Below are positions 12,231-51,590 of a stretch of DNA of 64,000 bases, piece by piece. The notes under the pieces were generated by a model. That model saw only the letters and a program-made list of their open reading frames with translations, did not search any database and was not told where the DNA came from. Each line of letters begins with the position of its first letter. Position 1 is the stretch's first letter. Position numbers and translations under genes: made by a program. Source of the DNA: CBDFMG01 sp965221205 [NCBI: bacterium] (lineage in GTDB: Bacteria; SM23-31); assembly GCA_965221205.1 (NCBI GenBank), contig OZ244870.1, positions 3,224,001-3,288,000 of the forward strand. Direction: 5' to 3'.

Positions 12231-12236
12231 TGTTGT
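12231..12236. repeat. 3-bp tandem duplication in aconitase substrate motif
   Basis: TGT-TGT on the plus strand (ACA-ACA on the coding strand). It turns GAC-AGC into GAC-AAC-AGC and so inserts an Asn into SDSHTPT, one of the most conserved aconitase motifs. Confidence 0.55.
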
Positions 12237-12526
12237 CGGAACCAAGAAGAATTTTACCTGGAATCCCAAACCTTTCGAGGTGCACCTGATGGCAAATACC
12301 GTTTCCCGGTCTGGAGTAGTATGCTCCATATTTCGCCGCAGATGTTTGAAGAAATTTATGATCGCCTGCACTGCGAAAATTGATCTGGAGCATGTTATGA
12401 TCGACATAAGAAACAGCTACTTCAGTTTTTACCTTCGGCAGTCCTATAGCTTCAAGCTTGAGAAATGCCATCGTTCCGGTCGCATCCTGCGTCAACACTT
12501 GGTCAACTTTTACGGAAAGAGGCTCA

Positions 12527-12542
12527 TCCGGTGTTCCGGTGT
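12527..12542. repeat. 8-bp exact tandem duplication in aconitase gene
   Basis: Two adjacent copies of TCCGGTGT (plus strand). Removing one copy restores the family-consistent frame ...LTPDEPLSVKVDQ across the break. Confidence 0.85.
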
Positions 12543-12804
12543 TAATGTCCCTGAAACCAAATGAGTATCAAATATTTTCTGCACTAAATTCTTACTCATG
12601 ATACCGCCACTTCAAATCATACATATTTTTTCAACTAGATTCTTGTCTAAACTAATATTTAAATCATCAAAGAGATTGCAAATCCCCCGAGAAATCAAAA
12701 AATGTACTATAATGATAGTAATGTAAACTAATTGCCCTTTAAAAGTTTTTCCATTCATACGCTTCAATTTTAAGTATAAACTGTCGGCAATCATTAAAAC
12801 AATT

Positions 12805-13782
12805 TCAATAATAAATTAACTCCCGGAGTGCTGATGAAATTTTCTTAGCACTAGGAAGATAGTATTTTTCAAGAGGCGGACTGAACGGGACCGGTATATC
12901 AAGTCCTGTTAATCGCCTGACCGGAGCATCAAGATGTTCAAATGCCTCTTCAGCAACAAGAGCTGCAAGCTCACCACCTACACCACCGGTAAGCGATTCC
13001 TCATGAACAATAAGGACTTTACCCGTTTTTTTCGTTGATTTCACAATCAGATCGCGGTCAAATGGCATGACCGTCCGTAAATCGATAACTTCTATAGAAA
13101 TTCCGTCCTGCACCAGATGTGAAGCTGCTTCGAGTGCCATATGGACTGTCGACCCATAAGTAACGAGTGTTGCATCTTCACCAACCCGTCTGACAATTCC
13201 CTTCCCAATTGGAACCGTATAGTCTTCTTCCGGCAGCGCTTCTTTCACTCTCCGGTAAAGATATTTATGTTCCATAAAGAGTACAGGATTATTATCCCTG
13301 ATTGCCGCTTTTAACAGACCCTTTGCATCGTAGGGTGTAGCCGGAGCAACTATTTTCAGACCCGGGACACGGAAAAACCAGGACTCATTATTCTGCGAAT
13401 GGAAAGGCCCCCCATGAACTCCCCCACCGCAAGGGCACCGGAGCACCAGTGGTACCGGTATACCATGAATATAGTGATATTTCGCAATGTTATTGACAAG
13501 CTGATTAAAACAACTGCTCAGAAAATCGGCAAATTGAAGTTCGGCTACAGGCCGGAGCCCCATGAGTGCAGCCCCCATCGAGAGTCCCATCATGGCAGAT
13601 TCGGAAATCGGTGTCTCAACAATTCTTTCTACTCCAAATTCTTCAACGAAACCTTTCGTTATCCCAAATGCACCGCCATATACGCCGATATCCATTCCGA
13701 CACAGCACACAGTGCTATCCTTCTGCATTTCTTCACGCAGTCCATCGCTGATCGCATCTTTATATGTTGTTACATCTGTCAT
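12805..13782 (-). CDS. 2-oxoacid dehydrogenase E1 component, beta subunit
   Basis: 325 residues, normal for an E1-beta. Transketolase-like pyrimidine-binding part (ETPISESAMMGLSMGAAL) and C-terminal transketolase domain (VIDLRTVMPFDRDLI, VHEESLTGGVGGE, RLTGLDIPVPF) are complete. It forms the alpha2-beta2 thiamine-diphosphate enzyme with the E1-alpha encoded 30 bases upstream. Substrate may be pyruvate or branched-chain 2-oxoacids; sequence alone does not decide. About 200 bases separate it from the dead aconitase downstream. Confidence 0.94.
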   Translation of the reverse strand: MTDVTTYKDAISDGLREEMQKDSTVCCVGMDIGVYGGAFGITKGFVEEFGVERIVETPISESAMMGLSMGAALMGLRPVAELQFADFLSSCFNQLVNNIAKYHYIHGIPVPLVLRCPCGGGVHGGPFHSQNNESWFFRVPGLKIVAPATPYDAKGLLKAAIRDNNPVLFMEHKYLYRRVKEALPEEDYTVPIGKGIVRRVGEDATLVTYGSTVHMALEAASHLVQDGISIEVIDLRTVMPFDRDLIVKSTKKTGKVLIVHEESLTGGVGGELAALVAEEAFEHLDAPVRRLTGLDIPVPFSPPLEKYYLPSAKKISSALRELIYY

Positions 13783-13812
13783 CTGCTTTATATAAACAAT
13801 ATGGAAGTTGGA

Positions 13813-14916
13813 TTAAGCATACACACCATCAATTGCTTCTATTCCATCTGGAAAGGGGCTTTCCTCGGCAAACTTTACTGCTTCTTCTATTTCCAAATTG
13901 ATATTATTCTGGGTTTCTATAAGATGTTGTGAATTAATATACTTCTTTTTTTTCAAATGCATTTGAAACGTTTTGATCGGATCTTTATCCGCCCACTTCT
14001 CAAATCCATTATCAATGGCGTTTTTACTATTGCCATCATTATAAATAGGTACGCAATTCGTTCGCGCTTCGATTAATATCGGGCCTTTCCCATTTTTTAC
14101 CACCAGAACAGCTTTTCTTATCGTCCTGTACACTTGCAGAATATCATTTCCGTTTATCAAGGAACCTTCAATACCGTATCCTGCTGCTCTGTCAATCAGA
14201 TTAGCACATGCATATTGTCTATCACTTGGTGTTGAGTAGGCAATCTGATTGTTTTCTATTATCACAATAAGCGGCAATTTCATTACCGAAGCGAGGTTTA
14301 ATCCTTCATGAAAATCTCCTGCACTGGTTCCCCCATCACCAATAAAAGTTAAAGCACACGAATTTTCGTTTTTTAACCGTCCAGCCAGAGCAGTCCCCGC
14401 CGCAACGGGAATCATGGCGCTTAAGTGACTTATCATACCGAAAATCCGGTGATTCGCATCGCTCATATGCATATTCGCATCGCGCCCACGGGTAGGACCG
14501 TTTTTTCTCCCCAGATACTGACAGAAAACCTGACGCAGACTCATTCCCCTTACAAAATAAGCACCAAGATCTCTGAATAACGGAAAAATTATGTCGTTTT
14601 CATCGAGAGCCGAAGCACCACCAACCGGTATTGCCTCCATCCCTCTCCCGGAAAAAACTCCACCGACAATTTTGCCTTCTTTATATAGCTCATAAATCCG
14701 CTCTTCGGCGCTCCTCTGCTGCATCATATTGTACAACATCTGTAAGAGAAGTTTTTTGTCAGGTTCTTTGAATCGTTTCCGCTTTTGTTCTGATTTATTA
14801 TTCACTGAACCTTTAGTTACGTTAGTGCCGGTATTGCCAAAGGGGACTGAACTCTTCGGTTGTTGTGTCTTTTTTGATATTTTTCGGGTGGTTTGTACCA
14901 TTATTCCTTTGGCCAC
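13813..14916 (-). CDS. 2-oxoacid dehydrogenase E1 component, alpha subunit
   Basis: 367 residues. After a basic, low-complexity N-terminus the ThDP-binding motif runs from GDGGTSAGDF to IIENNQIA, with the phosphorylation-loop-like region RGRDANMHMSD present. It decarboxylates the 2-oxoacid and acylates the lipoyl group of E2. lipB ends two bases upstream and E1-beta starts 30 bases downstream, so lpd-lipB-E1a-E1b form one transcription unit. The exact start is uncertain because of the extended basic N-terminus. Confidence 0.94.
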   Translation of the reverse strand: MAKGIMVQTTRKISKKTQQPKSSVPFGNTGTNVTKGSVNNKSEQKRKRFKEPDKKLLLQMLYNMMQQRSAEERIYELYKEGKIVGGVFSGRGMEAIPVGGASALDENDIIFPLFRDLGAYFVRGMSLRQVFCQYLGRKNGPTRGRDANMHMSDANHRIFGMISHLSAMIPVAAGTALAGRLKNENSCALTFIGDGGTSAGDFHEGLNLASVMKLPLIVIIENNQIAYSTPSDRQYACANLIDRAAGYGIEGSLINGNDILQVYRTIRKAVLVVKNGKGPILIEARTNCVPIYNDGNSKNAIDNGFEKWADKDPIKTFQMHLKKKKYINSQHLIETQNNINLEIEEAVKFAEESPFPDGIEAIDGVYA

Positions 14917-14918
14917 TC

Positions 14919-15593
14919 TTACTGATTCAAAGATACCTGAACCGATTCGTTATTAGGAACAAATAGTTTCCTGAATTTTGATTCAACAATCGATGCAACA
15001 TCTTCGAGCCGGTATTCTATCTTTGTCAAATCTTTTATTGACGTTGTAACGCAACCGTCTATTCCGCAGGGAGTAATCATGTTAAAATAATTTAAATCGG
15101 TTTTCACATTCAATGCAAATCCATGATAAGTAACCCATTTGGTAACCTTGACGCCAATCGATGCGATTTTTTTACTACCAACCCAAACTCCTGTTAATCC
15201 TTCTCGGCGAACTGCGGAAATCGTAAACTCAGAAAGTGACTGTATAATAACTTCTTCAAGGTTTCGAAGATACTTATGGAGATCGGTGTAATAATCGGTG
15301 AGTTTCAATACAGGATACCCAACAAGCTGGCCGGGTCCGTGAAATGTTATATCTCCTCCACGGTCAATACGGATAACAGGAATTTTGTTGACGTGAGTAC
15401 CGTCAAAAGCACCTCTGATGTTGCTCTCACTTCCCGATTTCCCAATCGTAAACACAGGATCGTGTTCGACAAAAAGCAGTGTGTCGGAAATATTACATTT
15501 TAGTCTTTCACCAGCCAACTGCTGCTGATATTCCCATGTGGAGTGATATTCCTGTTTTCCGAGAAAACGGACATCAAGAGTCGAATTGTTCAT
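14919..15593 (-). CDS. lipB: Octanoyl-[acyl carrier protein]:protein octanoyltransferase (LipB)
   Basis: 224 residues. Signature RGGDITFHGPGQLVGYPVLKL-type stretch is present, as are the catalytic lysine in SIGVKVTKWVTYHG and the catalytic cysteine in PCGIDGCVTTS. It moves octanoate from ACP onto lipoyl domains, after which LipA inserts the sulfurs. Location inside the dehydrogenase operon matches this role. Confidence 0.96.
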   Translation of the reverse strand: MNNSTLDVRFLGKQEYHSTWEYQQQLAGERLKCNISDTLLFVEHDPVFTIGKSGSESNIRGAFDGTHVNKIPVIRIDRGGDITFHGPGQLVGYPVLKLTDYYTDLHKYLRNLEEVIIQSLSEFTISAVRREGLTGVWVGSKKIASIGVKVTKWVTYHGFALNVKTDLNYFNMITPCGIDGCVTTSIKDLTKIEYRLEDVASIVESKFRKLFVPNNESVQVSLNQ

Positions 15594-15632
15594 TATGGTA
15601 ATAAAATTGAAAAATCTGTTAAAGCATTTGAG

Positions 15633-17027: not shown

Positions 17028-17131
17028 GATGTACCACCCTAGATGAGAAGAGCGGTCCGTGCAATCAAACCAATTAGACTAATATTGAATTGTAATTTTG
17101 GAAAATTAAAGATTATGTAACACCGGAATCA

Positions 17132-18220: not shown

Positions 18221-18296
18221 ATGTTATCCCTTTACATTTATATTTATTTTTAAAACTACTTTTTTACGAGAATACTTGAAAAATTATGGTTTAACT

Positions 18297-18715
18297 CTAA
18301 AATTCTCTATCAAAGTCATTGAGCGATATACTATGAAAATAATTTGTTATATCTTTTTGAATCCGCTTCATGACACCTTCAAGATCGCAAATACCTTTTT
18401 GATCACAACGTAAACCCCGTTCAGTAGCACAATCGATATTATAAATCCGATCTTCGGTGGCACTTATGATATATGATATCGCCGAGAGTTATCATACCTC
18501 GTTCCCGCATCAACTTATAACCGCCGTGTTTTCCCTTTTGAGACTGGACAATCCCCTTTCTCACAAGTTTTTGCAGTATCTTCGCAATAACTTCGTGGGG
18601 AATATTAAACTAATCAGCGATTGTCCGGGCACTGCAACTCTCTCCGTTATTCACGGCAGCAACATATTTTCATCGCCATAATTCCGTATTCGCTTCTTTT
18701 AGTTAACCAGAGCAT
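18297..18715 (-). pseudogene. Rrf2-family (IscR-like) Fe-S-sensing repressor, inactivated
   Basis: Reassembled across breaks the protein reads MLWLTKRSEYGIMAMKYVAA, then a winged-helix part (GIVQSQKGKHGGYKL), then the cluster-binding loop CATERGLRCDQKGICDL, ending SLNDFDREF: about 138 residues, the normal Rrf2 length. Lesions: an extra A near the start (MKYVAA), a TAG where IADQFNIPHEV is expected, and an exact 7-bp tandem duplication at 18466-18479 in LGDIIS. The three cysteines mark it as an Fe-S-sensing member such as IscR. Isc-type genes lie 13 kb away on the same strand. Confidence 0.85.
18466..18479. repeat. 7-bp exact tandem duplication in IscR-like pseudogene
   Basis: Two adjacent ATGATAT units (plus strand). 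Removing one restores LGDIISAT...IYNIDCATERGLRC, which matches the Rrf2 pattern. Confidence 0.85.
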
Positions 18716-18932
18716 ACTTTTTTCTCTAATGCCGTATATTTTGGTTGTATATAATGTACGAAAATTATTAGTATGTGTCAAGGAGATATAACTCATCTAT
18801 TTCAGCCTCTTTCAAATTCTATGATTCGTATGAATGATAGTACAATATGTTAAAAAATAAGAGTGTAATATTAATGTGCGAAATAGTACAATAATTGTCC
18901 AGTTTAGTTATTTATTATATGGGGAGGTTGTT

Positions 18933-20171: not shown

Positions 20172-21580
20172 TCAGTTTAGCATTTTATCGAACCGGATAT
20201 TTCTCACCCTATTTTTTGTCACCTCAAATCCGCCGACAAGTCCTCTTTCATCCTGAGTAAATTCAAGTCGATATGTCTCAAATTCATAATAGGTTCGACA
20301 TATTCAAGTGGAATCGGACCGCAGTCTTGGAGCGTTGAGAATCAGTTTCCCCTTTTCGCGGCCAATTTCATAGATAACATCAAGCTCTTCACTGTAGTAT
20401 TTTCCTGAAAAGGCAGCAATCTCCGTTTCCGACAGGATTCGGAGATAGCAGGTTGTTCTGTAGAAGAGGGTTCCGGTTCGGTTATATAGTCGGCGAGTAC
20501 AATATCGGTTACTTTATTTGCAAGCCGCCCCGGACTTCCATCACTTACATTCGTTAAAACCACAATCATAACATTCTGATCGGGAAGCATTATAAAACGA
20601 GCTCTGTACCCGGCATCAGAACCACCATGACCGATCGAATAAATGCCCTTATATATACTATGCGCAATGCCAAATGCATAGGGTAATTCCTCTCCGCTGT
20701 TCAGAACGCCGCCTGTCAGCAAGAGGTCAATTACTCCCTGTCCACCAATCTGTTTATGTCTGAAATTATCGGCCCAGAGCACAAGATCTTCAACCGTTGT
20801 AAGCAGAGATGTTGCCCCGTAGATGTCGAATACCGGAATGCTGATATTCAACGATCCGTTTTCATTGTGGAGATATGTCTGTGTCCGGTTTTTGACAATT
20901 TCTGAATGATCAACATGAAAATCGGTGTTCTCCATCCCAAAGAGTTTAAAAATATTGTCGGCAGTAAAATCTCTGAATGACTTCCCGGAAACTCTTTCGA
21001 CAATAGAGGTGAGCAGTGTATACCCGGTATTGCTGTAGAGATATTCATCATTCGGTTTAAAATTGAGCGATTTCTGCCGCTTTACAAATTCAAGCACATC
21101 TCCCTGCGCTCTGACATCATCATCCCGCTATCTCCCAAGAAAAAACAGGTCCCATTGGTCACAAAGTCCACTCGTATGGTGCACAAGGTGTCAAATAGTG
21201 ATAGTTTCCCAAAAATCAGGCACTTCAGGTATATACTTCCGTACGTCACATCATCGGGAGAGAGTTTCCCCTGCAGATGGAGCAGCACAATAGAAAATGC
21301 GATAAACTCTTTGGACACCGATGCAACATGAAATATTGACGACGGGGTAATGGGAATAGTATGCTCCAAATCCCTGTTTATAGAGCATATTCCCGTTTTG
21401 GGTCACGGAAAGAGCCGCGCCAAGTGTGCTATTGGTAAAGTGTGAAAAAGCAGCGTCGATTCCCCGAATTTGTTTCTTGGTTAATTCCGGCTGATAACCA
21501 AAAACATCCGTTGCGGTTTCAAAAAACATACCTGTGAAACAAACCGCTAACCATAAAAGTCATACTTTTCGTTGTGCCAT
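20172..21580 (-). pseudogene. Serine hydrolase of the beta-lactamase/PBP-like (class C) family, inactivated
   Basis: Reassembled, the protein has a signal-like start MAQRKV-LLWLAVCFTG, the SxxK nucleophile in VASVSKEF, the YxN motif in LYSNTGY, the HxG-like GHGGSDAGYR, and a C-terminal lipocalin-like domain (SGKYYSEELDVIYEIG...FTQDERGLVGGFEV). Lesions include in-frame TGA after MAQRKV, a deletion before EHTIPITPSS, TGA for Arg in TITIRHLVHHTSGL, TAG for Trp in LGRWRDDDV, an indel near 20430 and a stop in the C-terminal domain. At least five independent hits in one gene show old decay. Intact relatives are periplasmic peptidases or esterases. Confidence 0.85.
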
Positions 21581-23882: not shown

Positions 23883-23943
23883 TTTATTATTAAATACTTT
23901 TCTACTTCGATTGTATTACATATTTATTTCATTTATCGTACTA

Positions 23944-23975
23944 TTGAATCGAGTTGATTGAATCGAGTTGATTGA
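23944..23975. repeat. 14-bp exact tandem duplication, intergenic
   Basis: Two adjacent copies of ATTGAATCGAGTTG followed by ATTG of a third, between the symporter and the beta-propeller gene. It belongs to the same class of short duplications that break several genes in this window. Confidence 0.85.
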
Positions 23976-25419: not shown

Positions 25420-27895
25420 ATGAAAAAATTACTCTTAACCACAGTCCTGATTTTGGGCATCATTGCTGGTGCATCAGGACTGTACGCACAGGAATTCGGT
25501 TCAATTTTCGGCACAGCCACTGACTCTGAAACAGGCTATCCGTTAGTAGGGGCAAATATTACTATTGAAGGAACGTCGATCGGTACTGCAACACTTCAAG
25601 ACGGTAATTTTGCGCTACAATCTGTTCCAATCGGCGCTTATATACTTGTATGTACCTACATTGGTTACACAGAACTCCGCAAAACCATAACAGTCATTTC
25701 GGATTACAGATCTGAGGTTAATTTCATTTTGCTGCCCGATGTTTTCCAGAGTCTCGAAGTAATTGTTGCGCGGGAAATGCTTCCCGGCGGTACGGGTAGA
25801 ATTACCGGGATACCCGGTTCCGCACACTTTATAGGCAAGGATGAATTAGGGAAACATAATAATATAGATATCCACCGTGTTCTTAAAGCGATTCCCGGAA
25901 TCAATATTCAGGAAGAAGACGGGTATGGTCTCCGCCCTAACATTGGCATGCGTGGAACCGGGGTCGAGCGGAGTCAGAAAATCAGTCTGATGGAGGATGG
26001 TGTTTTGATAGCGCCCGCTCCTTACTCTGCTCCGGCAGCTTACTATTTTCCGACAGTCAGCCGGATGGAATCGATCGAAGTCAGGAAGGGATCAAGCCAG
26101 ATTAAGCATGGGCCATTTACTACCGGAGGTGCGCTGAATCTCATTTCAACACGCATTCCTGTTTCATTGATCGGAAATTTTCGTCTGAATGGCGGCGGAC
26201 ATGGACAGAATGGTATCTATGCTGCTGCCGGAAATTCATACAAATTTATTGGATTTGTTACAGAGTATAACCAACATAGGAGTAACGGGTTTAAAAATCT
26301 TAACATAGGCGGCAACACCGGTTTTGAAAAAGAAGACTATCTCATCAAATTCCGCCTCAACACTTCTCGGAATGCCCGGTTTTACCAATCTTTTACAGTG
26401 AAACTCAGTCAGACGGATGAAGTGTCGAACGAGACCTATCTTGGACTGACAGATGATGATTTTGCGGCAAATCCGTTAAGACGGTATACAGCATCGCAAA
26501 AAGATGTGATGAACTCAAAACATCAGCAGGTGAGTGCAACACATTTGTTTATGCTGAATGATAAAATAGACGTTACCACGACGATGTACAGAAACGAATT
26601 TGATCGGAATTGGTACAAGCTCGATCGAGTCCGCGCTACCGCTGACGGTTCACGCTCAAAAATTGGCGCAATTCTTTCCAATCCGACGGCTTATACTCAG
26701 GAATATGCAATTATCACCGGCACATCATCCAATAATGATAATGCACTTGAACTCAAAGCAAATAACAGATCATACCTCTCAACAGGTGTACAGTCTATTG
26801 TCGGTATTCAATTAGGAAATCGAGATAATACGCTCCACCAGATAGAACTTGGTGCTCGGTATCATGAAGATGAAGTTGACCGATTTCAATGGGTCGATTT
26901 ATACCGGATGAACAGCAGTGCCATGAATCTTACAGAACATGGAATACCGGGAACAGAAAGCAACAGGTTCAGTACAGCGGAAGCTTTTGCATATTTTGCT
27001 CAGTACAGAGTAAACAGAGGCAAATTCACTGCTGTTCCGGGAATTAGATATGAGACGATGAAGCTCGACCGCACTGATTACGGCAAAACCGATCCCGAAA
27101 GGACAGGCAGCAGTGCTTCATATCGGGAAAACAATATTTCTATCTGGATACCCGGTATCGGTCTCGAATACGATGTTAATGCAGATATTAGCGTGTTTAC
27201 TGGCATACACAGAGGCTTTTCTCCTCCGGGGTCAAAAGACGGCACCGATCCTGAAACAAGTATCAACTACGAACTGGGTGCAAGCATATCAAACAAAAAT
27301 CTTGGCACACAAATCGTCGTCTTCTATAATGATTATGACAACCTCCTCGGTTCAGATCTGGCCGGTGCGGGGGGGGTCAGGCTCAGGAGATTTACTGAAT
27401 GGCGGCCATGTTGAAGTCAAAGGAGTGGAATATTCCGCCCGGTATGATTTGAATGCTTTAACTTCGGTGCAACACTACTCATTCCCGGTTACTGCAGCGT
27501 ATACATTCACTGACGCTCAGTTTAAAAACAGTTTTGACAGCGATTACGAACCGTGGGGAACGGTAACAACAGGTGATGAACTCCCCTATCTTCCGCGGCA
27601 TCAGTTTTCTTTCAGTGGAGGAATTACTTCTCAGATGTGGCAGCTTGATGTGATCGGTAAATATAACGGAAAAGTACGAACCGTTGCTGGGCAAGGAACA
27701 ATCTTCGCAAAGCAAAGCGTCAATTCCCATTTTACACTGGATGCGAATTTAGAATACACATTAACTAGTAACAACAGGTTCTATGCCGGTGTCAAAAATG
27801 CATTTGATACTGTCTATATTGTTTCCCGCAGGCCAGCCGGTGTTCGCCCCGGTTTACCGAGAACATTTCTGATCGGTTTGAAAACAGATTTTTAG
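25420..27895 (+). CDS. TonB-dependent outer-membrane receptor (FecA-like), split at a G8 tract
   Basis: Signal peptide (LLLTTVLILGIIAGASGLYAQ-like), a carboxypeptidase-regulatory-like domain (about residues 28-110), a plug domain (IPGSAHFIGKDEL..., GMRGTGVERSQKISLMEDG, RKGSSQIKHGPFTTGGALN) and a beta barrel. Frame 1 stops at 27414; the last ~170 residues, ending in Phe (IGLKTDF), continue in another frame. The break is at eight G residues, 27369-27376: with seven the frame reads AGAGGSGSGDLLNGG straight through. Relatives import iron citrate or other siderophores. The split may be phase variation, mutation or read error. Confidence 0.9.
27369..27376. repeat. Poly-G (G8) tract at receptor frameshift
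   Basis: Eight consecutive G; seven (or ten) would put the two halves of the TonB receptor in frame. Homopolymeric G tracts are classical slipped-strand switches in surface proteins. Confidence 0.8.
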
Positions 27896-28014: not shown

Positions 28015-29081
28015 ATGGTTCTGCCTCTCTCCATTATTCTTTTATTGACAATTTGGTTTTTAGCGTATTCAAACGGAGCAAACGACAATTTCAAGGGCGT
28101 TGCAACTCTTTTCAGAAGTGACACACTCAACTACAAAAGGGCAATCTGGTGGGCAACAGAAACAACATCTGCCGGTTCGATTGTTTCATTTTTTTACTTC
28201 TGCGCTTGTGAAGAATTTTTCCGGAAAAGGGCTTGTTTCTGATATAGTTGCAAGTTCGCCCGAATTTCTAACGGCAGTTGGAATAGGAGCAGATCTGACC
28301 GTTTTTCTTGCGGCCTTGACCGGATTTCCCATATCGACAACACATAGTCTGACCGGTGCACTTACCTTATCGACATTTCTCTACGGAATATTTCATCGTA
28401 TTAGGACAAAGATAGGATTTGAAAAGGAACTTTGTGTTTGTGTCGGCGAAAAGAAGCAATTAATACCGGTTGCTGCGCTTTCCGGTCCCCGCCGTACGCA
28501 CTTCAGTCACAACAGCCTGTCGCACTACCTGAGATTGCTGTTGATGCACCCGAAAATTGCATTGAGCGCTATAAGGGTAGGTATTTTGGTATTCAACTCC
28601 AAAGCCTTGTCGACAGTACTCATTTTATTAGCTCTGGAATTGTCAGTTTTGCACGCGGTCCGAATGACACACCGAAAATTGTCGCATTCCTTGTCCTTTT
28701 CAGTTGATTTGGAATTGAGTACGGAATGGCAGCGGTGGCTATCGGAATGGCGTTAAGCGGCCTTCTTAATGCTCAAAAAGTTGCCGAAACGATGAGCAAA
28801 GGAGCAAAGATTGCACCGATCAGCCATACTCAGGGTTTTACTGCTAATATTGTAACTGGTTTTCTTGTTGTTATTGCAAGCAGATTCGGTGTGCCGGTCT
28901 CAACTACTCATGTTTCAGTCTGGTCCATTTTCGGCATCGGTCTCTCTTCAGGAAGTGCAAACATGCGCGTTGTGAAAATATTGTACTTTCATGGATTTTA
29001 ACGCTGCCGGTTGCAGCATTACTCAGTGGAATGATGTATTGGTTTTTATCTCTATTTAATCTGCAAACATCTGCAAAATAA
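28015..29081 (+). pseudogene. Inorganic phosphate transporter (PiT family), inactivated
   Basis: The start (MVLPLSIILLLTIWFLAYSNGANDNFKGVATL, read in parts) and two copies of the PiT signature are clear: GANDNFKGVATL with GFPISTTHSLTGAL, then ARGPNDTPKI with GVPVSTTHVSV. The pieces lie in several frames. An extra T in a T7 run near 28190 breaks the first part, a second shift lies near 28480, and a lost A near 28975 breaks the last helix (SWILTLPVAALLSGMMYW). The segment after TGALT is also shorter than in relatives. Intact proteins take up phosphate with H+ or Na+. Confidence 0.85.
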
Positions 29082-39740: not shown

Positions 39741-40692
39741 ATGCCGAACAAAAATAACAGTATATCTAAAGCATCATTGCTGCCCTTAGTTATACAAGAG
39801 GGCGATGAAAACTTTGACCGCAAACTATCAATCGATCATATGAGAACATGCAAATACCCTCCAACGCATATTAATTGCTCCACAGCGAAAGAATGGATCA
39901 AATGTCAATTGGGTGTTTGGAAATTCATGTACGAACCACGCGATATCAGAGATAAAAACCAACATCCAGCAACTTTTCCAATATCACTATCCAAAAGGAT
40001 AATTGAACTTTTTACACATGAGTACACATGAGGGAGAATTGGTTCTTGATCCCTTTGTTGGAAGTGGCACAACTTCGGTTGCTTGTAGTGATTTGAATCG
40101 CAATGGAGTTGGTTTCGATCTACAAGAAAATTATATAAGACTTTGCGAATCCCGCCTTTCTGAGCAGGCACATCTTTTTTCTGCAGCACAACAAATTGCC
40201 ATTCAAGATGATGCGAGGAACATATCCCACTATTTAGAACCAGAAACAGTTAGTCTAATATGGACATCACCACCGTATGCCAACTTATTAAATAGAAAGA
40301 GAAAGAATAAATCAAGGCGCGATAGGAAAAATGAACAGTTTGGCCGAATTGAACAATATTCACAAGACCCTCGGGATTTGGGCACTATGGAACTTGATGA
40401 ATATGCTGAAAAAATGGGCGATATATTCGAGAAGCTACTTCCTTTATTGCGCATAAAATCTCATTGTGTCATTAATGTACCAGATATGTGGTGGGAAAAT
40501 AAAAGAATAACAATCCATGTTTCACTTATTGAAGAGCTAAGGAAACGCTGATTTGAATTACGCAACGTAATAATTTGGGACAGAACAAACATAGTAAATA
40601 AAATAGGTATTTTTGGATGGCCAAGTAATTACATTACAATGGGTGTTACTTTTGAATATTTACTTGACTTTTGGAGGCCGCCTAAAAAATGA
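39741..40692 (+). pseudogene. DNA methyltransferase of MvaI/BcnI-type R-M system (SPPY class), inactivated
   Basis: Start ATG at 39741 with GGAG upstream. FPISLSKRIIELFTHEGELVLDPFVGSGTT carries the AdoMet motif DPFVGSGTT, and SLIWTSPPYANLLN carries the SPPY catalytic motif of N4-cytosine (or related) methylases. Two lesions: an exact 10-bp tandem duplication at 40013-40032 shifts frame between the two, and TGA replaces Gly in LRKRGFELRN near 40549. The gene ends PPKK with TGA overlapping the ATG of the restriction gene (ATGA). Without the methylase the partner nuclease would be lethal, but that is broken too. Confidence 0.88.
40013..40032. repeat. 10-bp exact tandem duplication in methyltransferase gene
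   Basis: Two adjacent copies of TACACATGAG. Removing one restores ELFTHEGELVLDPFVGSG in a single frame. Confidence 0.92.
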
Positions 40693-41520
40693 GACTTTAT
40701 TCAAAAGAAGAACTAATCGTAACTTTTCATGAGATATTTAATCAAGGGCGGCATAAAAGCGTTAAATTAACAAGAAATACGCGAAACGATGGGGCTGTGG
40801 GGAATACTTTGGAAAATTTATTGGGAATCGTAGAAAATAACCTTCCTATCCCGAATACCCAAGAATGGGAACTTAAAGGACAGCGCGAACACACATCATC
40901 TTTAATAACTCTAAAACACATGGAACCATCGCCTACCTACCGCTGTCAGAATTGTGTCTAATATTCTTCTCCCCTTCTATGGCTGGAAACACAAACAAGC
41001 AGGAGCCAGATATCCTAACGGTGAATTGAGCTTTCGTTCCACTACCAGCGCAACTTCATATACTAATCGTGGTTTTCGGATAATATTAGATCGTAAACTG
41101 AGCAAGGTGCGTCTTGTTTTCAAGGCATCTGAAGCAGATACGAATAATCCAGAAATTCGTAACTGGCTTAATTCCGTTGAAACAAGAGTCGGTCTTGGCC
41201 CTCTTAATCCGGAACCTTATTGGGGATTCGAAGACCTTAGATACGCAATAGGTTCAAAAATAAGAAATTGCTTTTACATCGTTGCACAAACGAAAGTTAT
41301 CGCTTCACACGAATATTTTCTTTTTAAGGAATTGTATGTTCTTTCCGGCTTCTCGTTTGATAACTTTCTTCGTTGCATTGAGAATGGCAATATTTTTATA
41401 GATTTTGATGCACGCACCGGCCATAATCACGGCATTAAGTTTCGATTAAAACAAAGCTGTTGGGACGCACTCTTCTCAAGCGTTAAAAAAGCAATTACAG
41501 AACAAAAATTACAAATCTAA
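40689..41520 (+). pseudogene. MvaI/BcnI-family restriction endonuclease, frameshifted
   Basis: The first part (TRNTRNDGAVGNTLENLLGI, ENNLPIPNTQEWELKGQRE, SSLITLKHMEPSP) is the family core with the acidic/ELK catalytic region; the second part (SNILLPFYGWKHKQAGARYP to AITEQKLQI) completes it. The frames are separated by one 4-bp tandem duplication (CCTA twice, 40932-40939). Deleting one copy gives EPSPTAVRIVSNILLPFYGW. MvaI/BcnI enzymes cut CCNGG-like sites. It is coupled to the methylase by ATGA. The R and M genes are both dead. Confidence 0.88.
40932..40939. repeat. 4-bp tandem duplication in restriction gene
   Basis: CCTA-CCTA. Removing one unit joins the two halves of the endonuclease in one frame. 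Confidence 0.8.
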
Positions 41521-41770
41521 ATGACGGTACCTATAGTTGGGACAGTCCATTTAAAATATCGCATATTTCTCCTCTGACTTTATATATGCTTGGAAATTCT
41601 TGAATAATATGTTATAGTATACAGCGTAACAACATACACAAAGGGGTTGTCATGAACAATCAGATAACTCATTTAGACCCTGTTGGACTTTTATTACTAT
41701 GTCTCAAGAAAGGACGCATCAGTTCGTAGTGCTTTCGTCCTGTCCGCCGGATACTTGCTGTCCTTACCCG

Positions 41771-41794
41771 CCAGTTGACATACCAGTTGACATA
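41771..41794. repeat. 12-bp exact tandem duplication (in frame)
   Basis: Two adjacent CCAGTTGACATA units encoding PVDIPVDI in the TIR partner gene. Confidence 0.9.
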
Positions 41795-41829
41795 AAAGAA
41801 CCTGAATACGTGTTGTCTTGTGGGAAAAA

Positions 41830-41843
41830 CTGGCGCCTGGCGC
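41830..41843. repeat. 7-bp exact tandem duplication, frame-breaking
   Basis: Two adjacent CTGGCGC units. Removing one joins CGKNWRIEIDMKD in one open frame. Confidence 0.88.
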
Positions 41844-42160
41844 ATTGAAATCGACATGAAGGACACTGCTAATGTCAATCTGATCGAGAGGTGTTTTAGC
41901 AACCCGAGTGGGAATGGTGCAGAGAATGGTACACTGGTTCTGGATAATGACCGGTACCTTCTGTGTGTGAAACATCCCAATTTTGGCCCCTCCAGAGCCA
42001 CTCACTATATTAACTTAACTCCAGACGAGTCAGTAGAAGTAGTAGAATGGCCAAAGAGGCCAGTTGCGACCTTCCGGAAATGGTCTCTTGCGGTGCACAT
42101 GGGCGGCGACGATCCTTTCCAGACTTTGATGTCTTTGCCTGTGGAGACGGAAGAGTAAAG

Positions 42161-42900
42161 ATGCCGGTGAAAATATTCTTTTCGTATTCACATAAGGATG
42201 AAGCCTTCCGCGATAAGCTAGACGTTCAACTCTCAACGCTAAAGTACGAAGGTCTCATTGAAACTTGGCACGATCGGTGTATCACAGCAGGGTCGCCTCT
42301 TGACCAAAGAATCAATGCAAGGCTTGAAGAGGCGGATATCATTCTGCTACTTGTAAGCCCGGATTTCCTTGCTTCCCAATACTGTTATGGTCTCGAAGTA
42401 ACTCGTGCGCTTAAGCGCTCCGAGTCAGGTAATGTCCGCGTTATCCCGGTCATCCTGCGACCCTGTGTGATTGGCATCACACGCCGTTCAAAAATTTGCT
42501 TGCTACACCTTGTGATGGCAAAGCGGTTACAAAATGGTCCGACCAAGACGATGTATTTCAGGATATTGTGACCTCTATACGGAATGCGATTAAAGACATG
42601 ACTGGCGTCCAGTCTTTGTCCACTACTACTGCTTTTCCCTCTGAGGTCCCGTTAAATGAGGCATCAGGTTCTAGCAATCTTCACCTGCGCAAGATTTTCA
42701 CCAAGTTGGATAAAGACTCTTTTCTTGAAGAGAGTTTTGAGTACATCGTCCGATTTTTCGATAAATCGCTTGACGAATTGGCCGTGCGCAATCCCGGAAT
42801 CCAATGTCGATTCAGGGGGCATGCTCATCAAGCCGCTTCAACAGTAGTACCTACACGGATATGCGTTGTTGGTGTGTTTCCAAGTTCATCAACCAACTAA
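42161..42900 (+). pseudogene. TIR-domain protein, frameshifted
   Basis: MPVKIFFSYSHKDEAFRDKL starts a bacterial TIR domain; WHDRCITAG, ADIILLLVSPDFLASQYC and the glutamate in CYGLEV (position of the NADase catalytic Glu) are kept. A TG repeat at 42474-42479 (three units, two expected) breaks the frame in ILRPCDWHHTPFKNLLATP. The downstream frame continues through a linker to SSNLHLRKIFTKLDKDSF and SLDELAVRNPGI, a conserved C-terminal module. A further frame problem lies near 42815. TIR proteins are often NAD-consuming antiphage effectors. The 3' end abuts the IS1595 remnant. Confidence 0.85.
42474..42479. repeat. TG dinucleotide duplication in TIR gene
   Basis: TGTGTG where TGTG restores PCDWHHTPF, the usual TIR sequence at this position. 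Confidence 0.75.
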
Positions 42901-43438: not shown

Positions 43439-45166
43439 GTGAACAATAAGACTGCAGCAAAAATTCTTGAAGAATTAGGGATAATGATCGAACTAAGCGG
43501 TGGTAATCCATTTAGTGCTCGTGCACATTATAATAGCGCAAGAATTATTGAGTCGTTACCCAAACCAATTGAATCTCTCGTAAACTCCAATGGGATTGGC
43601 GAAATAAAGGGGATCGGTAAAGGTCTCTCTGATAAAATTAAGGAATTGGTGACTACCGGTCACATTCAGGATTATACGCAGCTTAAGTCCGATCTTCCCG
43701 ATGGGCTTTTTGATATTCTCCGGATTCCCGGTCTAGGCCCAAAAAAAGTCCGTGTTTTGTATAAAACACTCGGCATAACCGATCTCTGTGAGCTTGAAAA
43801 TGCTTGCACTGAAAACCGCATAGCAACTCTTGAAAGATTCGGGAGAAAGACGCAGGAAAATATAATTTCGGGAATAGGGTTTTTGCGAATAGCTCAGGAA
43901 CAACACCTGTATCACCATGCTCAAGCACATGCAGACCAATTAATTACTGAACTCAAGAAACTTCCTGCTATTATCAGGATTGAAATTGCCGGAAGCCTGA
44001 GACGCCATAAAGAGACAATAAAAGATATTGATATCATCGCAAGTACACATAATGAAGGCCGTGATGCGGTAATGGAGTATTTTACCAAGTTGCCGAATGT
44101 TTCTGAGATAATCGGAAGAGGGCAGACAAAATCATCTGTCCGGCTGGAATCGGGAATCAGTGCAGATCTCCGGCTTGTTACGGATGTTGAATATCCCTTT
44201 GCACTGCACCATTTTACCGGTTCGAAGGAGCATAATACCACAATGCGTGCCCGAGCAAAAACATATGGCCTAAAAATGAACGAATACGGCCTGTTCAAAA
44301 ATGATACATCACTCAAATGCATCAGTGAAGAAGATATATTTTCAGCGCTGGAGCTTTCATATATAGAACCTGAAATGCGGGAAAATCTTGGCGAAATCAA
44401 TGCAGCGGCAGAGAACAAACTTCCCGGTCTTGTCACACCACAGGATATTAAGGGGATTCTCCATGTTCATACCACTTACAGTGACGGCGTGAATTCCATT
44501 GAAGAAATGGTTATTGCGTGTATGGAACGAGGATACAGTTATCTTGGTATTTGTGACCATAGTGTTTCTGCATTTTACGCGAATGGGCTTTCAGAAGAGC
44601 GGGTCAAAAAGCAGCATGATGAGATCGACAGACTTAACGAGAATTACAATGATTTTGTTATATTGAAAGGAATAGAATCCGATATTCTCATCGACGGTTC
44701 CCTCGATTATTCTGATTCAGTACTAGAATCGTTCGATTTCGTTGTTGCATCCATCCATTCAAAACTCAAAATGACCGAAGACGAGGCGGCACAACGCCTT
44801 GAAAATGCGGTTAAAAATCCGTTTGCAACTATTTTAGGACATCCAACAGGAAGGTTACTGCTATCCCGTGAAGGTTATCCACTCTCTCTGCACGCAATAA
44901 TTGAAACAGCACAGAAATACAATACTATTATTGAAATCAATGCAAGTCCGCACAGATTAGATCTTGACTGGCGGTACGGTAAATACGCCAAAGAGAAAAT
45001 AGTAAAAATTGCAGTAAATCCTGATGCTCACTCTACTCAGGGTCTTGACGACATTGTATACGGAATCGGTATTGCCCGAAAAGGGTGGCTAGAGGCTGAT
45101 GATATCGTCAATACAATGACCGCCGATGAAATATCGCGCTACTTCAAAACTTTAAAAGAGCAGTAA
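43439..45166 (+). CDS. polX: PolX: family X DNA polymerase with C-terminal PHP domain
   Basis: 575 residues from a GTG. The N-terminal part is Pol-beta-like: helix-hairpin-helix GIGEIKGIGKGLSDKI and IPGLGPKKVRVLYKTL, then the nucleotidyl-transferase motif EIAGSLRRHKETIKDIDII with the catalytic aspartates. From about residue 340 a PHP domain follows (LHVHTTYSDGVNSIEE, GHPTGRLL, NASPHRLDLDWR, NPDAHST), which gives 3'-5' exonuclease and AP-end cleaning in relatives. It fills gaps in base-excision repair. nth follows 63 bases downstream. It is intact, directly beside the scarred region. Confidence 0.96.
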   Translation: MNNKTAAKILEELGIMIELSGGNPFSARAHYNSARIIESLPKPIESLVNSNGIGEIKGIGKGLSDKIKELVTTGHIQDYTQLKSDLPDGLFDILRIPGLGPKKVRVLYKTLGITDLCELENACTENRIATLERFGRKTQENIISGIGFLRIAQEQHLYHHAQAHADQLITELKKLPAIIRIEIAGSLRRHKETIKDIDIIASTHNEGRDAVMEYFTKLPNVSEIIGRGQTKSSVRLESGISADLRLVTDVEYPFALHHFTGSKEHNTTMRARAKTYGLKMNEYGLFKNDTSLKCISEEDIFSALELSYIEPEMRENLGEINAAAENKLPGLVTPQDIKGILHVHTTYSDGVNSIEEMVIACMERGYSYLGICDHSVSAFYANGLSEERVKKQHDEIDRLNENYNDFVILKGIESDILIDGSLDYSDSVLESFDFVVASIHSKLKMTEDEAAQRLENAVKNPFATILGHPTGRLLLSREGYPLSLHAIIETAQKYNTIIEINASPHRLDLDWRYGKYAKEKIVKIAVNPDAHSTQGLDDIVYGIGIARKGWLEADDIVNTMTADEISRYFKTLKEQ

Positions 45167-45229
45167 TTCGATATATTTTGAGCAATGATCACGTTAGAAC
45201 TGCTTCCAATTTGTCAAAGGAGATATACA

Positions 45230-45886
45230 ATGCTGGATAGGAATCAGGAAGATACAATTAACAGATGCAAAAAAGTTATTGAACAACTGACGCACGACTT
45301 TCCTGATGCAAAATGTTCACTCAATTTTTCAAATCCGCTTGAACTCTTAATTGCAACCATTCTTTCTGCTCAATGTACAGATGCCCGCGTGAATAAGGTA
45401 ACACCAGCATTGTTTGAAAAATACAGAACACCGCAAGACTTCGTCGCAGTTGCACAGGAGGAACTCGGTGAAGATATCCGTTCAACCGGTTTTTTTAATA
45501 ACAAAGCAAAAAGTATTCAAAGGTGCTGTGCTGCTCTCATTGAAAAACATAAAGAAGCGGTCCCGAAAACAATGGAAGAGTTGGTAAAACTGCCGGGAAT
45601 TGGAAGAAAAACTGCAAATGTTCTTCTTGGAAATGTTTTTGGAATTCCGGGAATTACTGTCGACACTCATGTAAAACGGCTTTCATCCCGACTCGGCTTT
45701 TCCGACAAGAGTAATCCTGATAAAATTGAACTGGACCTCAACGAAATCGTACCGCAATCAGAATGGACTCATTTTTCACATTTGCTGATCGATCATGGAA
45801 GAAAAACATGTCAGGCCAGGAAACCGATCTGTGCTCAGTGTACTATAAAAGAGTTGTGCCCTTCGCGAGAAAACACAAATGATTAA
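45230..45886 (+). CDS. nth: Endonuclease III (Nth)
   Basis: Start ATG 45230 is preceded by AAGGAGATATACA, a strong ribosome site, so the 15 extra codons from 45185 are not used. 218 residues. Helix-hairpin-helix KLPGIGRKTANV with the catalytic lysine, the catalytic aspartate in VDTHVKRLSSRLG, and the Fe-S ligands C-x6-C-x2-C-x5-C (CQARKPICAQCTIKELC) are present. It removes oxidised pyrimidines and nicks abasic sites; PolX upstream could fill the resulting gap. Confidence 0.96.
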   Translation: MLDRNQEDTINRCKKVIEQLTHDFPDAKCSLNFSNPLELLIATILSAQCTDARVNKVTPALFEKYRTPQDFVAVAQEELGEDIRSTGFFNNKAKSIQRCCAALIEKHKEAVPKTMEELVKLPGIGRKTANVLLGNVFGIPGITVDTHVKRLSSRLGFSDKSNPDKIELDLNEIVPQSEWTHFSHLLIDHGRKTCQARKPICAQCTIKELCPSRENTND

Positions 45887-46517: not shown

Positions 46518-46529
46518 AGATTGGGGTCC

Positions 46530-47633: not shown

Positions 47634-47959
47634 CCTTACCTATATATGACGTATACTTTTACCATTTTTAGTCAAACACCAATAATAATCAATGGGCAAT
47701 CCCTATGCCAAAATTAATCAACACTGCATCTATTCATTACAATCTGAACATAAAATACAATAGGAAATTACATTAGCATTTGAAATTAAATCACTTACAG
47801 CACTCTGTAATGAGTATTTAAAATCATTTACGAACTGATTTTACTTGAATAATAATTCATTATTTTCCATATTATGTTTCAAAACAATACTATTATTGTG
47901 CAATTTCGAACACCATTTTATGCTCTTTTGCACATCTCACTGTTTTACAAATAAGAGTT
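47634..47959. other. AT-rich divergent intergenic region
   Basis: 326 bases between the start of the split receiver gene (minus) and arsC (plus). It should hold promoters for both. No distinct operator or hairpin beyond a weak AATAAT/ATTATT palindrome near 47850. Confidence 0.4.
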
Positions 47960-48397
47960 ATGACTAAAAAACGTATTATTGTTATTTGCACAGCTAATTC
48001 TGCACGAAGTCAGATGTCAGAAGGATTTTTCAGACACTATGGGGAAAATTTTCTGGAGATTTTCAGCGCCGGCATTCACCCGTCATATGTCCATCACGTA
48101 GCGATCGATGTGATGCTGGAAAAAGGAATTAATATTAAAGATCATACATCGGACAGCATCAATAAATATTATAATGATTCATTTGATTATGTAATCACGG
48201 TGTGTGACTCTGCCCAAGAGAGATGTCCGATGTTTCCTAATACCGCACATCAAATTCACATAGGTTTTGCGGATCCGAGTTCAGGTGCTGATGATGAAGA
48301 CTCACTCTACGACGGATTCAGATCTATCAGGGATCAGATTGAAGAATGTGTCATCGAGTTTCTGAAAGACAAAGGATGGTATCAGCCATCCCGTTAA
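47960..48397 (+). CDS. arsC: Arsenate reductase, thioredoxin-coupled (low-Mr phosphatase fold)
   Basis: 145 residues. The P-loop CTANSARS starts at Cys10 and the relay cysteines are Cys82 and Cys89 (VCDSAQERC), identical in position to S. aureus ArsC. The DPSS stretch supplies the general acid. It reduces arsenate to arsenite with electrons from thioredoxin. No ars efflux pump or ArsR is nearby, so it may be a stand-alone detoxification gene. Confidence 0.92.
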   Translation: MTKKRIIVICTANSARSQMSEGFFRHYGENFLEIFSAGIHPSYVHHVAIDVMLEKGINIKDHTSDSINKYYNDSFDYVITVCDSAQERCPMFPNTAHQIHIGFADPSSGADDEDSLYDGFRSIRDQIEECVIEFLKDKGWYQPSR

Positions 48398-48418
48398 TAA
48401 GCTGCTTCTTGTGTTGCC

Positions 48419-49255
48419 ATGCCCGTAGTCAGTGTTATAATTCCAACATTCAACCGGTTACCATTGTTACAAGAAGCGGTTGCCTCCGTACTCAATCAGA
48501 CATTTTCAGACTTTGAACTGCTCATTATCGATGACGGTTCAACCGACGGAACACGTAACCATTTCGATAAATCCCATCCCACGATACACTACATCTATCA
48601 GGAACACTCAGGTGTGAGTGCTGCCCGTAACAGAGGAATTGCCGAAGCACAGGGTGATTTTATTGCATTTCTCGATTCTGATGATTATTGGACAACGGAT
48701 AAACTTGCCAAACATGTCGGTTTCATGCAGTCAAATTCTAAAATTTTAATTAGCCAAACCGAAGAGAAATGGATCAGATTTAACAAACAAGTAAATCCGA
48801 AGATAAAACACAAAAAACCGTCCGGTGATATTTTCAATAGGTCTCTTGAGCTTTGTGTCGTGAGTCCATCCTCAGTGATGATGAGAAGGGGATTCTTTGA
48901 TACTATTGGTCTGTTTGATGAACAGATGCCTGCCTGCGAAGATTATGACTTGTGGCTGCGTACGGCATACCGGCTTGATGTTCCCCTTATCTCTGAAGAG
49001 CTTACCGTAAAGCGAGGCGGACATGAAGATCAGCTTTCCCGGCAGGTCTGGGGACTTGATAGATTCAGAGTTTATGCGCTTCAGAAACTCCTCATGGAAC
49101 CACTGACATCATCCCAACAGCAGAAAACACGTCAGGAACTGCAAAAAAAGTGTGCCGTTCTTCTGACCGGTGCACGAAAACGCCAAAACTATATTTTTGC
49201 AGTTCGCATAATACTGACACGCTTATATCCAGGAATGTCGTGGGGAATTATTTAA
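48419..49255 (+). CDS. Glycosyltransferase family 2
   Basis: 278 residues. GT-A fold markers: VSVIIPTFNRLPLLQEAVAS at the start, ELLIIDDGSTDGT, the DxD-type LDSDDYW, and MPACEDYDLWLRTAY acceptor region. It transfers a sugar from a nucleotide donor to a growing glycan or lipid. It follows arsC by 21 bases and converges on the WbqC-like gene four bases later, so it may share in surface polysaccharide synthesis. Confidence 0.9.
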   Translation: MPVVSVIIPTFNRLPLLQEAVASVLNQTFSDFELLIIDDGSTDGTRNHFDKSHPTIHYIYQEHSGVSAARNRGIAEAQGDFIAFLDSDDYWTTDKLAKHVGFMQSNSKILISQTEEKWIRFNKQVNPKIKHKKPSGDIFNRSLELCVVSPSSVMMRRGFFDTIGLFDEQMPACEDYDLWLRTAYRLDVPLISEELTVKRGGHEDQLSRQVWGLDRFRVYALQKLLMEPLTSSQQQKTRQELQKKCAVLLTGARKRQNYIFAVRIILTRLYPGMSWGII

Positions 49256-49259
49256 CGAT

Positions 49260-49967
49260 TTATTCCATCAAAGCACATTCCGCTGCAGACTGGAGTTGGA
49301 GAAACGTACCGAATCTTCCAAGGTTGAAAAGCGGATCGAGTATTGAAATTCCGGGAATGAATGGATAGAAATGCCCTCTTCCTAGTGGCGAATTGTATCG
49401 ATATGATACAATGGGCAGGAATTTATGTGTTGTGAAATATTCGGTGAATGGCATTGAACCATGCTCCTCCAACACTAAAGGCGTATCTCCAGCTGCCTGA
49501 ATCATCTCATCTAACTGCATCTCGTTACAAACTGAATTGTGCAATTCTGAAGTTCGTTGCAACCGGCAGGTAATCTGCAGCAGTGACGATATAAGGATAA
49601 TGAATGCACAATTCAAATCAGTTACAGATTTCCATGACTGTTCGACACAATCTTTGATATCGAAGAAGCTCTCTTCAAAATAGGAAGCACTTTTATAAGA
49701 ATGATGTATCTGTTTGAGGAATTTTTTCTGCCAGAATATTGTATCAATCGGTTCAATATCCCTGAGAACCCTTTCCTGCTTCCTGCTTTTGTTGACCGGA
49801 ACTTCCACATATTCTTTACGGTTTTGACGAATAATATGCGTTCTGTTAATGTTGCTTTTCTTTTTGTCCAATAGAGTATCGAGCATAATGCAGACATCAG
49901 CTTTGTAAAGGCTGTCAAAATATGCCAGATCAGGCAAAAACTCGGGTATCCGGATAGTGACAAGCAT
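49260..49967 (-). CDS. WbqC-like family protein
   Basis: Start taken at ATG 49967 (MLVTIRIPEFLPDLAYF), which aligns with the usual WbqC N-terminus; a TTG at 49985 is also in frame. 235 residues. IRIPEFLPDLAYFDSL, ADVCIMLDTLLDKK and NINRTHIIRQN match the family pattern of a conserved N-terminal histidine/asparagine region. WbqC proteins occur in O-antigen and glycolipid clusters and are thought to be cysteine-protease-like transferases of unknown reaction. It converges with a GT2 gene. Confidence 0.8.
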   Translation of the reverse strand: MLVTIRIPEFLPDLAYFDSLYKADVCIMLDTLLDKKKSNINRTHIIRQNRKEYVEVPVNKSRKQERVLRDIEPIDTIFWQKKFLKQIHHSYKSASYFEESFFDIKDCVEQSWKSVTDLNCAFIILISSLLQITCRLQRTSELHNSVCNEMQLDEMIQAAGDTPLVLEEHGSMPFTEYFTTHKFLPIVSYRYNSPLGRGHFYPFIPGISILDPLFNLGRFGTFLQLQSAAECALME

Positions 49968-50090
49968 AAAAAGGTGAGAATTCAATTTTCCTGTTCAAAT
50001 TAATTATATCGCCGGTGGCGAGCAAGATACATAAATTGTGGCATTTCAGCAAGGAGATTGATATATGCTTTTTTGAAATTTCACATAACA

Positions 50091-50116
50091 AAGAGTCCCG
50101 TAAATGCGGGACTCTT
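50091..50116 (-). terminator. Rho-independent terminator-like hairpin
   Basis: AAGAGTCCCG and CGGGACTCTT form a perfect 10-bp stem with a 6-base loop. On the minus strand it is followed by TGTTATGTG, a weak U-tract. It lies 125 bases after the cadherin-like gene and before the WbqC gene, so it probably ends the former. Confidence 0.6.
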
Positions 50117-50146
50117 AAACTCGTTTAGATTACAAGGAGCTTTAGT

Positions 50147-50167
50147 ATGAAAACAAAAGACAGTTAA
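50147..50167 (+). other. Six-codon ORF with strong ribosome site, likely gene-start relic
   Basis: AAGGAGCTTTAGT leads to an ATG reading MKTKDS then TAA. A leader and start this good on six codons suggests the beginning of a deleted secreted-protein gene, or a leader peptide. Confidence 0.3.
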
Positions 50168-51168
50168 TTATTGTAAATTCAAATAAAAAGGTTGACGTAT
50201 ACGAACCAGTTCTGTAATCGTCTGTTCCAACAGAAATTAATTATTTAATAAACGTCATCCGTTTTATATCGGTAAACGCTCCCGCTTGAAGCTTCATAAA
50301 GTAAAGATCTGATGACACTAACTGCCCAGTATTGTTCTTCCCATCCCATATAATTGAATTCTCACCAGCGGGCATGGTCGTATCAATGAGATGTCTCACT
50401 TCCTGACCGAGAGCGTTATATATTTTCAAAGAGACGTGTACAGGACGCGGCAGATTGAATTGAATCGTCGTTGTCGGATTAAATGGATTAGGATAGTTCT
50501 GTTCCAAAATGAAATTATCTGGAATAGTTAACTCTTCATCTTTCATACTATCAACACTGGTAATCAGCTCTTCAGTATTGCTCGCAATTGCCCAAAGAGC
50601 AAAGTGATCGGTCGTCACCGTTATTGTATTATTATCCGTATTGACGGTGCTTGGAAGCACATGCCAGATAAATCCACGTGCATCGAGTGAATCGTATACG
50701 CTCACGACAAGGCTGTCTTCATTGAGACCGAACCCGGTCACTAATGTTTCATCATATCCAAACGTTAACTCTGCTTCACTATTGTGCACGTCGAGGTTTA
50801 TGTCAATATAATGCACGGCATTTGTGAACGCAGGCACCGTTGGAAATTCCTCCGCAATATTTGAAGTCGAGATCTGTTTGACCGAAATGATCTGATTCGC
50901 AACCTCGCCGCCTGTAAAGGCAATCGACAGTGAAACACTATTCGAAAAATCCAGTGATATGCTCGATCTATCCGCCGGGATAGGAATATCGTTCTGTATA
51001 TCGGGATCGGCCATGACAACCACATCTTTTGCGATAACTGCAATCGATGTAGTGAGTGTATCAGCCGCTCCAACTGCATCTTCTGCACTGATCGAAACGG
51101 CAATATCAGACCAGACATCGGAAACACCGGGAGTCCCTCCGACAGCGCCGTTCTCACCGACCGTCATC

Positions 51169-51306
51169 CAGTCGGGGCCCGAAACTTTTGCAAAGGTAAT
51201 ACTATCGCCAACATCCGGGTCGATCGCTTTCACTGTGTCGTCATACGCCACGCCTTCGGTCGCATCAGCAAGCAATACTGTTGTGATGGCCGGTGCATCG
51301 TTGACG
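51169..51306. repeat. Cadherin-like DNA repeat, intact copy
   Basis: 138 bases, highly similar to 51451-51590, about 282 bases apart. This copy lacks the 2-bp duplication and so serves as the in-sequence reference for the broken one. Confidence 0.8.
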
Positions 51307-51450
51307 TTGATGACGGTAATCGTCGTGTTCAGCGTATCCGATCTCTGCGGGATACCGTTGTCTGTGACGACCAACGTGACCACACTCTCGCCGACATCGC
51401 TGTTCTGCGGTGTGCCGGAAAGAGCGCCGGTGCGGGAACCAACCGTCACC

Positions 51451-51590
51451 CAGTCGGGGCCCGATACTTTTGCAAAGGTAATTCTATCGCCAACATCTGG
51501 GTCGGTCGCTTTCACTGTGTCGTTATATGCCACGTTTTCGGTCGCATCGGCAAGCGATACTGTGTTGTGATGACCGGCGCATCGTTGACG
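51451..51590. repeat. Cadherin-like DNA repeat, copy with 2-bp duplication
   Basis: 140 bases, two longer than the copy at 51169-51306. The extra TG at 51561-51564 (TGTG against TG) is what breaks the frame. Confidence 0.8.

Follow-up and report, generated by a model that had tools for sequence, protein, structure and literature searches.

The 64-kb stretch of contig OZ244870.1 analyzed here (positions 3,224,001 to 3,288,000 of the assembly of CBDFMG01 sp965221205; hereafter the window, numbered from its first letter) carries a series of broken genes in which a few adjacent bases occur twice, exactly and in tandem. All ten such duplications claimed in the original prediction are present in the sequence. 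The six with units of at least 7 bp were found by an exact scan, while the 3-bp and 4-bp cases and the dinucleotides TG and CA were found by alignment or reading. Lesions were placed by aligning the window DNA with proteins of other genomes, with a frame-aware method that tolerates insertions, deletions, and stops. Searches for close relatives of the window found none (the best aconitase match is 56%), and within the collections its closest relatives are distantly related organisms of a Bacteroidota-like group.

The aconitase pseudogene (10892-12608, minus strand) is recognized from Pfam Aconitase pieces and from alignment to homologues, agreeing with the consensus of five of them at 328 of 567 aligned residues. 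An 8-base frameshifting insertion in this alignment sits at an 8-bp exact tandem duplication recovered by the exact scan (12527-12543, minus strand), and a 3-bp tandem insertion at 12231-12236 (minus strand) is in frame. The homologue alignment also reveals one-base insertions at 12189 and 10997, a TAG at 11774, and a 123-bp deletion at 11819; the C-terminus is missing. The IscR/Rrf2-family regulator pseudogene (18315-18715, minus strand) has a one-base insertion at 18667, a TAG at 18612, and a 7-base frameshifting insertion at a 7-bp exact tandem duplication (18465-18479, minus strand). Here, exact scan, alignment, and Pfam agree: the Rrf2 profile matches two pieces, with profile positions 15-78 before the duplication and 80-129 after it.

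A dead defence cluster occupies 39963-42854, comprising an MvaI/BcnI-type restriction enzyme with a methylase, followed by a TIR protein with an upstream partner. The DNA methylase pseudogene (39963-40690, plus strand; Pfam N6_N4_Mtase) has an in-frame TGA at 40549-40551, and we read in it a DPFVGSGTT motif before a TSPPY motif. Exact scan and alignment place its frameshift, a single insertion, at a 10-bp exact tandem duplication (40013-40032, plus strand); the alignment sizes this insertion at 16 nt, which leaves the same frame as 10. In the TIR-domain pseudogene (42158-42854, plus strand), alignment to a homologue gives a two-base insertion at a TG repeat at about 42467. Outside the cluster, a cadherin-like gene (51310-51592, minus strand) carries a CA duplication at about 51563, where DNA alignment of two internal repeats reveals an extra CA relative to the gene's own next repeat.

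The remaining duplications of the cluster are read with more caution. The frameshifted restriction endonuclease (40689-41520, plus strand) was identified by a match to R.MvaI and by alignment to a homologue on an Acinetobacter plasmid (35% identity). Its 4-bp tandem duplication (40932-40941, plus strand) is a possible frameshift site and a weak case, because the alignment places the frame changes otherwise (one nucleotide lost at 40938 and 14 inserted at 40967) and because such duplications are common by chance (0.27 per 100 bp). The gene upstream of the TIR gene (41653-42160, plus strand) is defined by open reading frames (ORFs) and contains a 12-bp (41771-41794) and a 7-bp (41830-41843) exact tandem duplication, both on the plus strand and recovered by the exact scan. 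Homologue searches and Pfam gave no match for this partner, so its two cases are judged from reading frames. Scans of viral contigs with the restriction enzyme and the TIR gene, a phage search, and a near search of plasmids gave nothing useful.

The original prediction held that removing one copy restores a family-consistent protein in every case. Alignment bears this out for the 8-bp and 3-bp aconitase units, the 7-bp IscR unit, the 2-bp TIR unit, and the CA of the cadherin-like gene. For the methylase it does so in part, as the insertion lies at the duplication and in the right frame but is sized at 16 rather than 10 nt, and the 4-bp restriction enzyme case is weak.

Exact tandem duplications were counted across the window and compared with order-3 Markov sequences of matched composition. 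The whole window holds 14 units of at least 7 bp (5.9 expected), 8 of at least 8 bp (1.48 expected; Poisson P = 1.5e-4), and 3 of at least 10 bp (0.07 expected; Poisson P = 5.4e-5). These post hoc Poisson values are not clean tests, since the window was chosen because duplications were noticed in it and the choice of coding sequences (CDS) was ours. On that choice, 29 CDS count as intact (30.5 kb), all but one of them with a Pfam match, and the remaining 33.5 kb contains a few ORFs with Pfam matches found later. Outside the CDS, units of at least 7 bp number 12 (3.27 expected) and those of at least 8 bp number 7 (0.92 expected); inside, the counts are 2 (2.9 expected) and 1 (0.62 expected), respectively. 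The excess is confined to DNA outside the CDS taken as intact, an enrichment under relaxed selection.

The longest unit, of 14 bp in 2.4 exact copies, lies between genes (23943-23975). Duplicated units that may or may not be insertions are those of 8 bp at 28794, 34275, and 60014, of 9 bp at 52817, and of 7 bp at 5835, 6562, 49773, and 60072. An excess across all unit sizes was rejected, with 172 units of 4 bp (201 expected) and 50 of 5 bp (58 expected). Approximate repeats number 13 at score 34 (5.7 expected) and 6 at score 40 (2.1 expected) in the window, and 109 (71 expected) and 47 (23 expected) in control genomes; on this comparison, they were rejected as unusual to the window. A GTTGACA motif in the 12-bp unit was likewise rejected as a special repeat mark, with 16 copies scattered about.

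Duplications coincide with breaks more often than chance would bring about. Homologue alignment places 12 frameshift sites in six genes, a count that leaves out the TonB receptor, the serine hydrolase, and the cadherin-like gene. Three of the 12 have a duplication of at least 7 bp, against 0.067 coincidences expected from chance duplications and 0.25 expected given the 12 present outside the CDS. The inserted bases are an exact adjacent copy in the 8-, 7-, and 10-bp insertions, two 2-bp insertions, and one 3-bp insertion. The alignments support the reading that at least three duplications of 7-10 bp are the frameshifting change itself.

Other genes in the window are also broken. A PiT phosphate transporter pseudogene (28033-29048, plus strand), with 180 of 330 residues identical to a homologue in L048, has three frame changes, a TGA at 28705, and about 99 bp missing in two adjacent gaps (28364-28382). 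Its 8-bp exact tandem duplication (28794-28809, plus strand), which corresponds to a net in-frame gain of 6 relative to the homologue, may be due to chance. The gene at 59725-60177 (plus strand), which we take to be of the LOG family, has a TAG at 59812 and a 171-bp in-frame deletion at 60028. An 8-bp exact duplication (60014-60029) adjoins the junction of this deletion, as if a single event had made both. For the TonB receptor pseudogene and the serine hydrolase, homologues are too distant to size indels. The TonB gene has a run of eight Gs at a frame change (27368-27380), and the 4-14 bp insertions proposed there by the aligner were rejected as duplications, their placements being poor at 35% identity. 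The large internal deletions in the aligned pseudogenes (aconitase 123 bp, PiT about 99 bp, and LOG 171 bp) each have a length divisible by three.

The claim that the duplications cause gene death is not supported. Aconitase, the IscR-like gene, and the methylase each also have a stop codon, the first two also have one-base shifts, and aconitase has in addition its large deletion and lost C-terminus. In each of these genes, any of the several lesions may have come first.

The broken genes carry substitutions to stop codons, one-base shifts, and large deletions alongside the duplications, while two conserved control genes read with the same alignment method, ferrochelatase and the E1 alpha subunit, have zero frameshifts and zero stops. 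Random sequencing error is disfavoured because it is unlikely to spare conserved genes. The lesions are gene decay, not random sequencing error. An assembly or sequencing artefact more generally would find some footing in several one-base homopolymer changes, which resemble sequencing errors taken alone. It is nevertheless a quite improbable account, as it must face the clean control genes, the many long Pfam-supported ORFs that stay open, and the stop-codon substitutions within the broken genes. If transposons were excised flush, two adjacent copies of the target site would stay behind in the exact two-copy form, and a fragment of an integrase-core transposase lies at 60584-61057. Yet the unit lengths (7, 7, 8, 10, 12, and 14 bp) vary, which, as the original prediction argued, speaks against the target duplication of one transposon. 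Several element families, all excised tracelessly, would be needed, and no transposon has to be invoked for the insertions of one, two, or three bases that the same genes carry; we regard such footprints as very unlikely. Classical Ku/LigD end joining, in which staggered breaks are filled in, yields exact duplications whose length varies and which need no microhomology, a form that six cases here share. The Ku profile (PF02735), however, matched none of the 18 genomes searched, which are distant relatives of the window at best, and 1 of 14 control genomes, Bacillus subtilis; this route seems to us very improbable.

An insertion-biased process particular to the lineage, such as an error-prone polymerase or a repair defect that makes microhomology-free duplications unusually often, is a further alternative. 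Three frameshifting insertions of 7-10 bp could be placed, and each exactly duplicates local sequence, whereas a sample of about 45 kb from eight strains of Escherichia coli (less in two), with 20 distinct indels (15 deletions, 3 insertions, and 2 unclear), includes three deletions and no insertion of 4-20 bp. This contrast is the sole feature that might exceed the ordinary, and its numbers are small. The window also encodes a family-X DNA polymerase with a PHP domain (PolX; 43439-45166, plus strand), an open frame whose catalytic motif is presumably complete and which may be a candidate actor. An endonuclease III-like gene, likewise open, follows directly (together 43439-45886). The events are few, however, and the genes they come from were chosen for study after being noticed. 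Deletions of 4-14 bp are an alternative reading of some frame changes (restriction enzyme, 40932-40938; serine hydrolase, 21354-21361; TonB, 27565-27574). Furthermore, two control sets have more duplications per kilobase. We consider an insertion bias of this kind unlikely.

We therefore favour neutral decay of dispensable genes, in which short insertions probably arise as copies of adjacent bases. Such insertions would comprise one base in homopolymers, two in dinucleotides, and 7-10 bp (perhaps also 4 and 12) elsewhere. Those of one or two bases resemble ordinary slippage. For six duplications (8, 7, 10, 4, 7, and 12 bp), the match extends past the two units by 0.67 bases on average, compared with 0.69 expected if homology is not needed. 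Slippage on preexisting repeats is thus unsupported for the longer units, because the extra match equals the expectation without any such requirement. Most likely, a DNA polymerase would re-copy a few bases beside a stalled or nicked end, with no preexisting repeat needed, and the copies would persist because selection has ceased to act on this DNA. We infer both the re-copying step and the neutrality. Local mis-copying during replication or repair is a better fit than transposon footprints or Ku joining because the lengths vary, microhomology is slight, and Ku is absent from the 18 distant relatives.

Several observations weigh against neutral decay by local copying. The majority of the 12 placed frameshift sites (nine) have no duplication of at least 7 bp; many of these nine are one-base changes, several in homopolymers, and some can be read as deletions. 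With homologues at 35-60% identity, one- and two-base shifts are often indistinguishable from deletions. Three in-frame insertions, a second 3-nt insertion in aconitase (12092) and insertions of 6 nt (28729) and 9 nt (28513) in PiT, have no local duplication by eye and may be ordinary divergence. The 14-bp intergenic unit has 5 extra matching bases, and adding it lifts the mean to 1.3. Several control genomes have little excess in ordinary intergenic DNA, and the E. coli sample, in its small numbers, offers no insertion of the relevant size.

Comparison with other genomes does not single out this lineage. In a first control of 400 kb from six other genomes, units of at least 8 bp number 16 (16.8 expected) and those of at least 10 bp number 1 (about 1.3 expected), a comparison in which the window stood out. 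A wider control, covering 1.2 Mb in eleven sets, altered this picture. When ORFs of at least 100 amino acids are masked, these controls hold 19 units of at least 8 bp in non-ORF DNA (7.4 expected) and 69 in ORFs (43.7 expected), and the window holds 4 (0.4 expected) and 4 (1.2 expected), respectively. With the mask set at 150 amino acids, the controls hold 30 (7.6 expected) and 58 (35.2 expected), and the window 5 (0.5 expected) and 3 (1.3 expected). At 12.5 units of at least 8 bp per 100 kb, the window stands above nine control sets and below two, the GC-rich G149 (20) and G181 (23). The suggestion of a signature special to this group is not supported, given these two sets, and pooled non-ORF control DNA is also in excess.

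Control G149 includes a lower-GC, partly ORF-poor island (G149:C1:215001-400000, a region that covers L193, L194, L156, L157, L195, L113, L196, L158, L197, and L198) with 38 exact duplications of at least 10 bp in 185 kb. Island and window share exact short tandem duplications lying in DNA that is lower in GC and poor in ORFs. Unlike those of the window, the island's unit lengths peak sharply at 14 (7 units), 15 (15 units), and 17 (8 units), with none of 13 or 16. Twelve duplications fall within 300-310 kb, and some units recur at several places. Target-site copies were rejected as their source: at separations of 300-3500 bp there are 15 direct repeats of 14 bp, 4 of 15 bp, and 3 of 17 bp, which form no peak when judged by eye and not against a null. 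A bolder interpretation, that a Ku-less lineage copies 4-15 bp beside breaks without microhomology often enough to make this a leading route to gene loss, with the G149 island as a stronger form elsewhere, is one to which we give little credence.

What stands of the earlier interpretation is that the duplications exist, are more numerous in decayed DNA than chance predicts, and include at least three that shift the frame; the cause of death and the group-specific signature are not supported. Our search of the open-licence literature found no report that attributes bacterial pseudogenes to short tandem duplications, which does not prove that none exists. Deletion bias is usually reported for bacteria. 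An insertion bias, if true genome-wide, would oppose it and would make testable which polymerase copies without a repeat. Danneels et al., in a 2018 study of indels in bacterial pseudogenes, reportedly found deletions in multiples of three and placed their emphasis on deletions. Both that study and the window concern decaying bacterial genes with deletions in multiples of three, here the three large internal ones; the window differs in that insertions stand out, although in small numbers.

The window is a real and well-supported example of a common short-insertion pattern in decaying DNA, and does not represent a novel type of system. Tandem duplications, simple or complex, account for about 80-90% of short insertions in flies and primates (PMC2374710). 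The fly and primate micro duplications are like those of the window in that inserted bases copy their neighbours exactly and lengths vary. They were drawn from many events in eukaryotic divergence data, whereas the window offers a handful of bacterial pseudogenes compared with distant homologues. As a clean set of lesions, the window points to local duplication as one source of short insertions in bacterial gene decay too.

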